Shown: positions 2,908 through 58,584 of the stretch, in pieces
Position numbering within the stretch: position 1 is the stretch's first letter
Layout: each line of letters starts with the position of its first letter
Source: Selenobaculum gibii
Lineage (GTDB): Bacteria > Bacillota > Negativicutes > ICN-92133
Direction of reading: 5' to 3'
DNA: 64,000 nt
Assembly: GCF_030273445.1 (NCBI RefSeq)
Contig: NZ_CP120678.1
Coordinates: forward strand, 2,395,501 to 2,459,500
Translations under genes and position numbers: made by a program
The notes under the pieces: generated by a model
Told to the model about the DNA's origin: nothing
The model's database searches: none
Seen by the model: the letters and a program-made list of their open reading frames with translations, nothing else

Positions 2908-3150
2908 TTATTCCCTGTTATTTTCACAGAAGTTTAGAAGATATGTTTTGGCTTCTTCTCTAGATTCAAAGATGTTCCAGCATCCTGTTATATAATTAAC
3001 AGCTTCATTCCACTCATATAAAGAATGCTCGTAAAGATATATTTTATTAATAATATTTTTACTTAACTTATGTTGCGCCTGCTTACGCAGATCCGATAGA
3101 TAAACAGAATCCGTATATTGAGTAAATAAATCTAATAAGCTGTTTTGCAA
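2908..3150 (-). CDS. Hypothetical protein, 80 aa, next to recombinase
   Basis: I do not recognise this protein. It is 80 aa, mostly helical by composition, rich in Tyr and Leu, with no membrane segment or Cys pair motif. The start is TTG at 3150 behind GGGGG with a 7-nt spacer, which supports real translation. It sits downstream of a serine recombinase on the same strand, separated by 145 bp that contain two perfect palindromes, and it ends at its own terminator. The context suggests accessory or mobile DNA. It could be a small partner or cargo of the recombinase, but nothing in the sequence shows its role. Confidence 0.6.
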   Translation of the reverse strand: MQNSLLDLFTQYTDSVYLSDLRKQAQHKLSKNIINKIYLYEHSLYEWNEAVNYITGCWNIFESREEAKTYLLNFCENNRE

Positions 3151-3295: not shown

Positions 3296-3904
3296 TTATT
3301 GAGCACAATTTGCATATTTTTTTGCTTTACGATAAAAAGTACTACGTGACATGTCTAATAAATCAAGTGCTTCTGGAAGCGTTATCAGCGCATTTTTCCA
3401 AGATTGACAAATCGTCGGGAAATTACTTGGAATTTCTTTTTCTGGCCTGCCAAATCGAACTCCCCGCTTTTTCGCTGCTAAAATCCCTTCCGCTTGCCGC
3501 GCCCGAATCATTTCTCGCTCATTCTCAGCGACAAAGGATAGTAATTGTAAAACCAAATCCGAAATAAACGTTCCTAATAAGTCTTTTGAAATTGTCGTAT
3601 CCAGCAATGGCATATCAATTACTCGTATATCCACCTTTTTATTTTTTGTAATATATCTCCATTGAATCAAAATTTCTTCATAATTTCGCCCCAGTCTATC
3701 TATACTTTTAACAATAAATAAATCTCCCTTTCGCAGTTTACGTAAAAGTCTTTTATACTGCTTTCTCTCAAAATCTTTTCCACTTTGTTTGTCAATAAAA
3801 ATATTTTGTATTTCAATTCCCAAATCCAAAAAGGAAAGCATTTGTCGCTGCACATTTTGATCTCTACTTGATACTCTAATATATCCATATACCTGCTTCG
3901 TCAT
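3296..3904 (-). CDS. Serine recombinase, resolvase/invertase family
   Basis: This is a small serine recombinase that breaks and rejoins DNA at short dyad sites. The catalytic domain starts YGYIRVSSRDQN, with the nucleophile Ser in RVSS near residue 9. SIDRLGRNYEEI near residue 70 and ENEREMIRARQAEG near residue 130 are the expected conserved segments. The end (about 165-200) is a helix-turn-helix with LPEALDLLDMSRSTFYRK. I chose ATG 3904 rather than the longer start at 3934 because AGGAGG lies 6 nt upstream. The resulting 202 aa is the usual length for Hin/Tn3-type enzymes. No transposase is next to it. The two palindromes just past its stop are candidate target sites. Confidence 0.9.
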   Translation of the reverse strand: MTKQVYGYIRVSSRDQNVQRQMLSFLDLGIEIQNIFIDKQSGKDFERKQYKRLLRKLRKGDLFIVKSIDRLGRNYEEILIQWRYITKNKKVDIRVIDMPLLDTTISKDLLGTFISDLVLQLLSFVAENEREMIRARQAEGILAAKKRGVRFGRPEKEIPSNFPTICQSWKNALITLPEALDLLDMSRSTFYRKAKKYANCAQ

Positions 3905-5190: not shown

Positions 5191-5429
5191 GAATACTCCT
5201 CCATCAATGGCATAACTGAAGCTATTTCAGCAAAAACCTATTTATTACTGCAAAAAATTCTAATCCATAAGCTACCCTGGCTTTTTCCTTATCCCAATGG
5301 ATAAAATAATAAGCAGTAAATAAAGTCGTAAGATAGTTAAATAAAAATTTATAAAAGTAATCTTTGCCAACCAACTATTAATTATATTTTAACACATTTT
5401 AGAACATAATAGTTGTGGAGGTGTTTATT

Positions 5430-55689: not shown

Positions 55690-56016
55690 ATGACAATTAA
55701 GAATCTACCCCCTTGCCCCGTAGAAGTGACGCTAAGTTTAATCGGCAACCGCTGGAAGTGTCTAATTTTGCGAGATTTATTATCAGGAACAAAAAGATTT
55801 GGCGAATTAAAAAAATCGGTGGAAGGCATTACGCAAAAAGTTCTGACAAGCAACCTGCGCGAAATGGAAGCCAATAATCTTTTAGTACGCAGAGTCTATG
55901 CCGAGGTTCCGCCCCGTGTTGAGTATACCTTAACGAAAACCGGTATGAGTCTTAGGCCAATTCTGGAAGCAATGTTCGTCTGGGGAAGTGAATACAAAGA
56001 AAAAAATCAAGCATAG
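55690..56016 (+). CDS. HxlR-family transcriptional regulator
   Basis: The 108-aa protein is a complete HxlR (MarR-like winged helix) regulator: PPCPVEVTLSLIGNRWKCLI at the start with the conserved Cys near residue 9, LSGTKRFGELKKSVEGITQK, LTSNLREMEANNLLVRRVYA and PPRVEYTLTKTGMSL. Relatives such as YodB and HypR sense electrophiles or quinones through that Cys. ATG 55690 is chosen because GGAGG lies just upstream. The divergent cupin gene is the probable target. Confidence 0.9.
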   Translation: MTIKNLPPCPVEVTLSLIGNRWKCLILRDLLSGTKRFGELKKSVEGITQKVLTSNLREMEANNLLVRRVYAEVPPRVEYTLTKTGMSLRPILEAMFVWGSEYKEKNQA

Positions 56017-56105
56017 ATAAAGACTTAAACTATCTTTAGATTTAATCTAATTAAATATCTTTTCGCTCTATTTTTAATAGGTGATAGCTCCACTTATCTT
56101 TGTAC

Positions 56106-56165
56106 AAATCATCTTTTGTAAACTTTGACAGAATCTATCTCTTCAATTTTTACAAAAGATGATTT
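56106..56165 (+). terminator. Hairpin after the HxlR gene
   Basis: AAATCATCTTTTGTAAA (56106-56122) is complementary over 17 bp to 56149-56165, followed by TTT. It may end the HxlR transcript. It also lies 105-165 bp upstream of the sigma-54 promoter. Confidence 0.6.
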
Positions 56166-56166
56166 T

Positions 56167-56208
56167 TTAAGGGGATTTTTTCTCATTATCGGGTAAAAAT
56201 CCCCTTAA
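56167..56208. repeat. Second hairpin, TTAAGGGGATTTTT arms
   Basis: TTAAGGGGATTTTT (56167-56180) pairs with AAAAATCCCCTTAA (56195-56208). It lies 62-103 bp upstream of the sigma-54 promoter, where an activator-binding site would be expected. Confidence 0.55.
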
Positions 56209-56269
56209 ACACAGATAAATAAAAAACTCTTTACTGCGATAAATACTAGTTATTATTGTGATTTCTAAG

Positions 56270-56287
56270 TTGGCATGATTTTTGCAT
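56270..56287 (+). promoter_or_regulatory. Sigma-54 (RpoN) promoter
   Basis: TTGGCATGATTTTTGCAT has GG (56272-56273) and GC (56284-56285) with exactly 10 bp between, matching the -24/-12 consensus TGGCAY-N5-TTGCW. A sigma-54 activator gene lies 1.1 kb away at 57358. Confidence 0.75.
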
Positions 56288-56373
56288 TGTTAAATAAGTA
56301 ATACAATTTAAATCTTTGCAAACAGATTAGACCGCGATAAAAAATCGACTTACTCTAGTAAAAGGGGAATTGG

Positions 56374-56517
56374 ATTAACTGGTTATTTCGTCCACTAGAG
56401 ACGAATGCATTCATCAAATATTTTTTAGCATGTATATGTTCATTAACCGTTTGTTATTTTGCTTGCAAATATATTGTATTGAAAATTCCACCATTTAAAG
56501 TAGCACGAAAACAATAA
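56374..56517 (+). CDS. Candidate 47-aa membrane peptide under sigma-54 control, ATT start
   Basis: The frame from ATT 56374 to TAA 56517 lies 6 nt after AAAGGGG and ends 3 bp before the terminator. It has no ATG, GTG or TTG near its beginning, so translation would need the rare ATT start, or the start codon has been lost. The product has a basic/acidic head (RPLETNAF), one hydrophobic helix (IKYFLACICSLTVCYFACKY) and a basic tail (KIPPFKVARKQ), like small single-span membrane proteins. Its place between a sigma-54 promoter and a terminator supports a real unit. I recognise no family. Confidence 0.4.
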   Translation: MNWLFRPLETNAFIKYFLACICSLTVCYFACKYIVLKIPPFKVARKQ

Positions 56518-56520
56518 ATA

Positions 56521-56573
56521 AAAAAGGCTGCGTATATTCAGATGAAGCCCATCCAGTATTCGCATCCTTTTTT
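56521..56573. terminator. Terminator shared by glpF and the short sigma-54 unit
   Basis: AAAAAGG at 56521 pairs with CCTTTTT ending near 56572, with inner GCG/CGC pairing. It has T runs on both sides, so it can serve both convergent transcripts. Confidence 0.65.
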
Positions 56574-56641
56574 TATCCCACTTTCAACTTTCCCTTCTAA
56601 AACAGGAGTTAAAAGCTATTAACTTTATCAATAGTATTTCT

Positions 56642-57361
56642 CTAAAAACATACCTTAGCCATCAAAAAACCTACACTGCCACCAATTAATGGTCCAACAA
56701 TTGGAACCCATGCATAACTCCAATCAGATGTTCCCTTTCCCTTGATAGGAAGCAAAGCATGTGCTAACCTTGGGCCAAAATCACGTGCTGGATTTAAAGC
56801 ATAGCAGGTAGTGCCACCTAAGCTTAATCCAATAGCCCAAATTAAAAATCCGACAATACACGGAAGTAAGTACGCTGGAATCGACCATATTTTCCCTGAT
56901 GTTAATGCAAAAAACGGAAAAACTAGCATCGCCGTACCAATAATCTCCGAAATTAAGTTTGTCCAAACGTTACGAATCGCCGGCCCAGTTGTAAATACAG
57001 CTAAAATTAACTCACTCTCTTCAGTTTCCTTCCAATGCGGATAAAAATGTATCCATACAATGCACGCGCCAACAAAAGCACCTAAAATTTGACTAACAAT
57101 AACCCCAATCATTTCAAGTAGTGTATATCCGCCCATAAAACCTCTGATAATCGTTAAGACTGGATTAATATCTGCATACCAAGCTCCCGCTGCTATAGCG
57201 CAATAAACACCAAATACAACAGCCAATGCCCAACCTACTGTAATTACCAGCCAGCCTGCCCCTTCAGCTTTGCTACGCCACAAAATAACATTGGCAAGAA
57301 CGCCATTTCCTAAAATAATCAATATCATTGTTCCAATAAATTCACCTATATAAAGACTCAT
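56642..57361 (-). CDS. glpF: Glycerol facilitator / aquaglyceroporin
   Basis: The 239-aa membrane channel of the MIP family has six helices. The two pore boxes are ADINPVLTI near residue 65 (NPV in place of NPA) and ALNPARDFGPRLAHAL near 195. The Asp after NPAR and the overall length are marks of glycerol-conducting members. The start ATG 57361 overlaps the stop of the sigma-54 activator gene by 4 bp (ATGA), so the two are coupled. It ends at the terminator 56521-56573. Confidence 0.9.
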   Translation of the reverse strand: MSLYIGEFIGTMILIILGNGVLANVILWRSKAEGAGWLVITVGWALAVVFGVYCAIAAGAWYADINPVLTIIRGFMGGYTLLEMIGVIVSQILGAFVGACIVWIHFYPHWKETEESELILAVFTTGPAIRNVWTNLISEIIGTAMLVFPFFALTSGKIWSIPAYLLPCIVGFLIWAIGLSLGGTTCYALNPARDFGPRLAHALLPIKGKGTSDWSYAWVPIVGPLIGGSVGFLMAKVCF

Positions 57362-58425
57362 ACTCTAGCCTCCCGTTCAAAATTAATGCCATATTTCTGC
57401 GCTTTTGCTGCTACTGTTTTATGCGTAATACCAAGGGCTTTACCAGCAGCCGTATAACTGCCAAATCTATCTAACGCCGCTGTTATAATCTGCTTTTCAT
57501 ACTCTTCTAACGTTAATAACTCCCCTTGTACAATGCTTTGATAGATAGGATTTGGTTTACTTTTTTCAATCCGATTATAAGAATCAAATTCCAAATCAGA
57601 TGCTTCTATACGGGAATGATCTGTCAAGACAACTGCACGCTCTACAATATTTTGCAACTCCCTTACATTTCCCGGCCAATTGTATTGCAATAAAAGGCGC
57701 ATTGCTTCCTCACTAAATCCACTAAAGCTTTTATTAAAAACTTTTGCATATTTATGTAAAAAATGTTCAGCAAGCAAAAGAATATCTGTTTTGCGCTGCA
57801 CTAAACTAGGTAAATAAATGGGAATTACATTGAGTCTATAATACAAATCAGCTCTAAACTCACCTTTGGCAATAAGACTGACCATATCCTGATTCGTAGC
57901 CGCAATAATTCGGACATCAACACAGATACTGTTTTCTCCTCCAACCCTATCAAAGGTCTTGTTCTGCAAAACCCTCAATAATTTACACTGCATACGAATA
58001 TCCATTTCCCCAATTTCATCAAGAAAAATTGTCCCTTTATCCGCCAGCTCAAATTTACCTAATTTATTTTTTATGGCTCCGGTAAATGCACCTTTTTCAT
58101 GCCCAAATAATTCGCTTTCTAATAAAGTTTCTGGAATTGCTGAGCAATTCACTTTGATCATAGGACCTAATGCGCGTTCACCCGCCAAGTGAATTCCTTC
58201 AGCAATCACCTCTTTCCCAGTTCCACTTTCCCCACAAATCAACACTGTTGACTGTACTTGCGCCGCTTTTTCTGCTAGATTTAACACTCTTAAAATTTCA
58301 GGACTTTTGCCAATAAAACCTGTAAAAGCTGCATTGCTATATTCCTCACGCAAACGCCTGGTTTCCGATGATTCAATTTTCAGTTGAGATGCACTCCAAC
58401 TATTCCCATAACCATTTCTTAGCAT
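57358..58425 (-). CDS. Sigma-54-dependent activator without a sensor domain
   Basis: The 355-aa protein has the AAA+ activator domain from about residue 37: FIGKSPEILRVLNLAEKAAQ, Walker A ICGESGTGKEVIAE near 63, GHEKGAFTGAIK near 107 (the sigma-54-contacting GAFTGA loop), Walker B GTIFLDEIGEMD near 132 and YNWPGNVRELQNIVERAVVL near 257. The C-terminus is a Fis-type helix-turn-helix (DRFGSYTAAGKALGITHKTV). Only about 35 residues precede the AAA+ domain, so there is no receiver, PAS or GAF input. ATG 58425 has AGGGG upstream. It is cotranscribed with glpF. Its likely target promoter is at 56270. Confidence 0.92.
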   Translation of the reverse strand: MLRNGYGNSWSASQLKIESSETRRLREEYSNAAFTGFIGKSPEILRVLNLAEKAAQVQSTVLICGESGTGKEVIAEGIHLAGERALGPMIKVNCSAIPETLLESELFGHEKGAFTGAIKNKLGKFELADKGTIFLDEIGEMDIRMQCKLLRVLQNKTFDRVGGENSICVDVRIIAATNQDMVSLIAKGEFRADLYYRLNVIPIYLPSLVQRKTDILLLAEHFLHKYAKVFNKSFSGFSEEAMRLLLQYNWPGNVRELQNIVERAVVLTDHSRIEASDLEFDSYNRIEKSKPNPIYQSIVQGELLTLEEYEKQIITAALDRFGSYTAAGKALGITHKTVAAKAQKYGINFEREARV

Positions 58426-58426
58426 A

Positions 58427-58584
58427 TTAACCCCTACTCACCTTTGAATTTATAAACAAGGCCTCTTCAATAAGAGCTTTAACTTCACTGAAAGCAGACA
58501 CATTAAACCCCGAATAAAACCCATAAAATTTTACCGATATTTTGGATAATTACACATAACTTTCTTTTCATCCATATTCGTCAT
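58427..58584 (-). pseudogene. Possible broken small gene upstream of the sigma-54 activator
   Basis: ATG 58584 opens a 17-codon frame ending PKYR. One base of shift continues it as VKFYGFYSGFNVSAFSEVKA to a TAA at 58427, right before the activator gene. The two parts together would make a 52-aa protein. The C-terminal part has a coding-like composition. The ribosome site is weak. The call rests on reading frame only. Confidence 0.3.

Follow-up and report, generated by a model that had tools for sequence, protein, structure and literature searches.

The locus is located in a window of 64,000 nt (G000:C1:2395501-2459500), which is the whole stretch of DNA analysed and which was taken from a single-contig genome of 2.68 Mb. 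On the forward strand, a sigma-54 promoter of the -24/-12 type (TGGCATGATTTTTGCA, 56271-56286) with an expected transcript start at 56297 precedes a frame of 47 codons, which extends from an ATT codon at 56374-56376 to the stop codon TAA at 56515-56517 and is followed by a hairpin terminator (56520-56573). On the reverse strand, and convergent to this frame, are a gene for a glpF-type MIP channel of 239 aa (56642-57361, PF00230) and a gene for a sigma-54 activator, or EBP, of 355 aa with AAA+ and HTH regions (57358-58425; PF00158, PF25601, PF18024). The EBP stop and the glpF start overlap by 4 nt.

The promoter, the ribosome site and the terminator

The -24/-12 element reads TTGGCATGATTTTTGCAT at 56270-56287 on the forward strand, with 10 nt between the GG and the GC, and the promoter at 56271 has no mismatches to the pattern TGGCAYGN4TTGCW. 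This pattern occurs once in the window, as compared to 0.07 expected from shuffled sequences, and only 6 perfect sites were identified in the entire 2.68-Mb genome, in which the same pattern read backward, used as a control, gave none. Four of the five other perfect sites precede PTS, dhaK or DUF6905 genes, and the fifth is intragenic and probably a chance match. The genome contains rpoN (G000:C1:584101-584574) and, in addition to the EBP gene at 57358-58425, six further EBP matches. With a consensus of correct GG-GC spacing and with both rpoN and EBP genes in the genome, the element is, as judged from its sequence, a real sigma-54 promoter, in agreement with the full -24/-12 element and the start at 56297 proposed in a previous sequence-only reading of this DNA. 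The promoter may still be firing.

At L048, a perfect site (3105-3120, forward strand) lies directly before two small membrane genes of the DUF6905 family (PF21846), and no activator gene is present in the 6 kb of sequence read there. At L047, a perfect match (3755-3770, reverse strand) lies upstream of an isochorismatase-like gene, inside an ORF for a membrane protein of 172 aa, and is possibly due to chance. Between the HxlR regulator and the promoter in the window, two long inverted repeats are placed back to back (56106-56209), with arms of 23 nt and 15 nt and a fold z of -10; these may be terminators or activator sites, and similar stems are found elsewhere in the genome, for example at G000:C1:1314105.

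The ribosome site (AAAAGGGG, 56360-56367) lies 64 nt after the expected +1, rather than about 75 nt as suggested previously, and is separated by the gap AATTGG from the ATT, which is located 77 nt after the expected +1; otherwise, the order of ribosome site, 6-nt gap, ATT, 47 codons and terminator was as described. A near-cognate codon is found 4-8 nt after 40 of the 82 SD-like motifs in the window, which is not above chance, and the ATT start is thus without independent support. The terminator was also recovered where it had been placed, just past the stop codon, with a folding energy of -18.2 kcal/mol on the forward strand (z -5.2). The hairpin is of about equal strength on the reverse strand (z -4.4), so that it could also terminate glpF, and it is regarded here as common to the two convergent units.

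Similarity of the 47-codon frame to AT3 acyltransferases

The region had been described as empty, apart from a short frame for a peptide with one helix. We found that the frame (56374-56517, forward strand) corresponds to the C-terminal end of acyltransferase-3 (AT3) membrane proteins, as seen in protein and DNA alignments to a paralogue in the same genome and to homologues in the class, and that the helix is the last AT3 transmembrane helix, here followed by the tail. The paralogue has 377 aa and matches PF01757 at 2.5e-22; the frame is 51% identical to its C-terminus (E = 2.6e-14), in a gapless alignment to residues 327-373 with 49-51% identity and E-values from 2.6e-14 to 8e-12. When the paralogue was compared to positions 56000-56700, the counterpart of residues 327-373 at 56374-56514 was the sole significant segment. 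A profile of AT3 homologues matched the frame with an E-value of 7e-12, and the 47 residues by themselves gave no Pfam match. The similarity is thus to the C-terminus of full-length members and runs in one frame through to the stop codon.

The similarity begins exactly at the ATT in protein and DNA alignments alike, and this codon, which corresponds to Met-327 of the paralogue, is preceded just upstream by the in-frame stop codons TAG and TAA. No other AT3 pieces were detected above noise in 56000-56640, and residues 1-326 of the paralogue have no counterpart there. The segment 56297-56373, in which AT3 similarity is absent, would be the 5' leader of the lost gene. In total, 20 of the 381 genomes of the class, the source genome included, matched the frame at an E-value of 1e-3 or better. 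All matches outside the 56374 locus are in ORFs of 336-438 aa, and those in the 19 other genomes are weaker than the match to the paralogue. A search of relatives for the 47-aa frame with an ATG start had been suggested previously; no stand-alone short version was found in any of the 381 genomes, and the relatives instead carry a complete AT3 gene of 370-400 aa.

AT3 enzymes have some 10 transmembrane helices, and conserved residues on TMH1/3, an Arg and a His, are needed for activity; His, Arg and Tyr residues have been reported as essential (PMC9833829). These residues map upstream of the retained part. The remnant represents the C-terminal end alone and lacks about 326 N-terminal residues, including the essential ones, and is not a functional member of the family; the nearest NCBIfam model, NF003014 (MdoC), was matched far below its cut-off. 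The frame is open and has kept the invariant Lys-Tyr of the family. Over 42 codons, the remnant differs from the paralogue by 16, 7 and 22 substitutions at codon positions 1, 2 and 3, respectively, a pattern that resembles the one between intact homologues. Relative-rate counts were mixed, being even for most outgroups and nominally significant against the G009/G027 outgroup only. An open frame with no clear rate acceleration indicates either a recent deletion or a constrained tail. The intact paralogue (L045 4908-6774) is located behind a gene for a TetR-type regulator on the same strand and has no sigma-54 site, and the two AT3 copies would thus differ in their control.

The locus in other genomes of the class

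The relatives compared share only the class with the source genome, and a GlpF search of genome contigs identified no genome nearer than these. Named hits such as Megasphaera and Schwartzia, together with the gene content, point to Negativicutes as this class. In G009 and G027, which belong to one genus, a complete AT3 gene is found at the same place, convergent to glpF and with an EBP gene behind, and about 47 nt separate the AT3 end from the glpF end. In G009, the sequence TGGCACAAATATTGCT is followed after 40 nt by the start codon of AT3, and in G013, which represents another lineage, TGGCATGAAAATTGCA precedes the AT3 gene. The sigma-54 sites before intact AT3 genes lie at L181 2984-2999 and L178 3678-3693, and sites with scores like those in G009 and G013 occur at no more than about 0.0007 per 300 nt in controls read backward. 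No recognisable sigma-54 site was found before AT3 in G027 and most other AT3 homologues.

The AT3 protein of G013 is 53% identical to the paralogue and among the closest AT3 homologues. Those of G009 and G027 come from a different branch, with 36% identity to the paralogue and 7 identities over the 47 residues of the remnant, and may not be strict orthologues of the lost gene. The gene order differs in G016, the AT3 protein of which is distant (23%). AT3 genes are located near glpF in four of six loci with an adjoining EBP gene, as compared to none of 25 loci without (Fisher p = 0.0005; p = 0.002 when the congeners G009 and G027 are counted once). The DNA of 56230-56620 is not conserved in 40 relatives, in which only chance-like matches of 20-31 nt were obtained.

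The glpF product is 60-65% identical to its homologs in G016, G051, G009 and G027, each of which is adjoined by an EBP gene. A sigma-54 activator and a GlpF-type channel form a conserved pair in the class (L178, L179, L177, L180, L183), and at L183 a sigma-54-like site, TGGCATATAACTTGCA (5381-5396, reverse strand), is situated between the activator and channel genes. The EBP in the window has 355 aa, as compared to 485-618 aa in relatives, and lacks the N-terminal sensor region. Its AAA+ and HTH regions are 57-64% identical to those of DhaR/PrdR-like EBPs with HPr and PAS sensors, but neither an HPr nor a PAS domain is present in the window EBP; the relative in G051 carries PTS-HPr and PAS domains. 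The score is under the cut-offs of the listed NCBIfam equivalog models. We also considered whether the missing N-terminus of the EBP is still encoded, in another frame, at about 58426-58540, but the HPr-type similarity was not significant (equalled by 214 of 1000 shuffles, for the best of three comparisons). The first residues of the protein fall within the linker that precedes the AAA+ domain, a start also seen in PspF-like activators.

The EBP at 57358-58425 likely regulates the promoter at 56271, since the same EBP-GlpF pair flanks the AT3 gene preceded by a sigma-54 site in G009. The activator had been named previously as the natural regulator, and the comparison to G009 speaks for this assignment. 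The EBP may be unregulated or decaying and, given the missing sensor region, the whole regulatory unit looks reduced.

Origin and fate of the transcription unit

We suggest, with a probability of about 0.87, that the unit is what remains of a gene that encoded a membrane acyltransferase of the AT3 family (PF01757, MdoC-like) and depended on sigma-54, with its first seven-eighths now missing. This interpretation is based on the promoter, the homology, the C-terminal position of the match, the synteny and the absence of the gene's other parts. The ancestral locus would have consisted of the sigma-54 promoter, the leader, the AT3 gene and the shared terminator, convergent to an EBP-glpF operon, the EBP of which presumably activated the AT3 promoter. 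An internal, in-place deletion of about 326 codons would then have fused the leader, with its ribosome site, to the final 47 codons of the gene, with a junction at or just before 56374, and would have spared the promoter, the leader, the C-terminal helix and the terminator that this gene has in common with glpF. A transcript of about 280 nt, if the promoter fires, would be a vestige, and any peptide translated from it would be devoid of the essential His, Arg and Tyr. A decaying gene is thus the most likely explanation, rather than a new small protein or a regulatory RNA.

The previous proposal of an independent small gene that starts with ATT is not borne out: the frame is the tail of AT3, and the ATT at 56374 is an internal codon, not a demonstrated start. 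It could still be that the cell has retained the truncated tail as a functional one-helix membrane peptide of 47 aa, with an AUU start and under sigma-54 control. The intact frame behind a good SD sequence, the terminator directly 3' of it, the substitutions to the paralogue, most of which affect codon positions 1 and 3, and the lack of a clear rate acceleration are all consistent with such a peptide. However, intact homologues show a similar substitution pattern, and the differences may therefore all predate the deletion. Together with the internal position of the ATT, the near-cognate codons behind about half of the SD-like motifs and the absence of the short version from the 381 genomes of the class, this makes a retained peptide very unlikely. 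That such a peptide modulates the full-length paralogue by mimicry of the last helix is slightly less probable still.

Likewise, we consider it highly improbable that the product of the unit is a sigma-54-controlled regulatory RNA of about 280 nt, which was the second product suggested by the sequence-only reading. The promoter and the terminator do bracket a transcript of 279 nt, but it folds no better than shuffled sequences (z -1.05) and has no Rfam match, its DNA is not conserved in the 40 relatives, and coding homology accounts for the sequence. It is equally doubtful that the 3' end of an AT3 gene was duplicated on its own and happened to land behind a sigma-54 promoter unrelated to it. 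Such a partial duplication would fit the presence of an AT3 paralogue in the same genome and of AT3 genes from another branch convergent to glpF in G009 and G027, but these two genomes share the gene order and have the AT3 gene in full, a sigma-54 site precedes AT3 in two lineages, and an identity of about 50% to the paralogue shows that the remnant is not a recent copy. An antisense function against glpF was ruled out, as the terminator comes before the glpF end.

The AT3 enzymes and the sigma-54 promoters are of known kinds, and the process described here is ordinary gene decay. As in the sigma-54 promoters with an adjacent EBP gene that were reconstructed for the Clostridiales (PMC6615313), we observed a full consensus, rpoN, an adjoining EBP and, in relatives, a site before an intact AT3 gene; in contrast to those systems, the target gene is gutted here and the EBP has no sensor region. 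The main texts of the sigma-54 surveys searched contain no mention of acyltransferases or glycerol, the EBP-GlpF-AT3 association was not found in these surveys, and a limited search for literature on Negativicutes, sigma54 and acyltransferase together retrieved no paper.

A promoter, a ribosome site, a frame and a terminator in tidy order may simply be what a gutted gene has left behind, and such an order alone is no proof of a small-protein gene. In this class, presumably the Negativicutes, the association of an EBP, a channel of the glycerol type and an AT3 acyltransferase is apparently undescribed and represents a more useful by-product of this analysis than the 47-codon frame. The target promoter of this association is testable in relatives with a complete AT3 gene.
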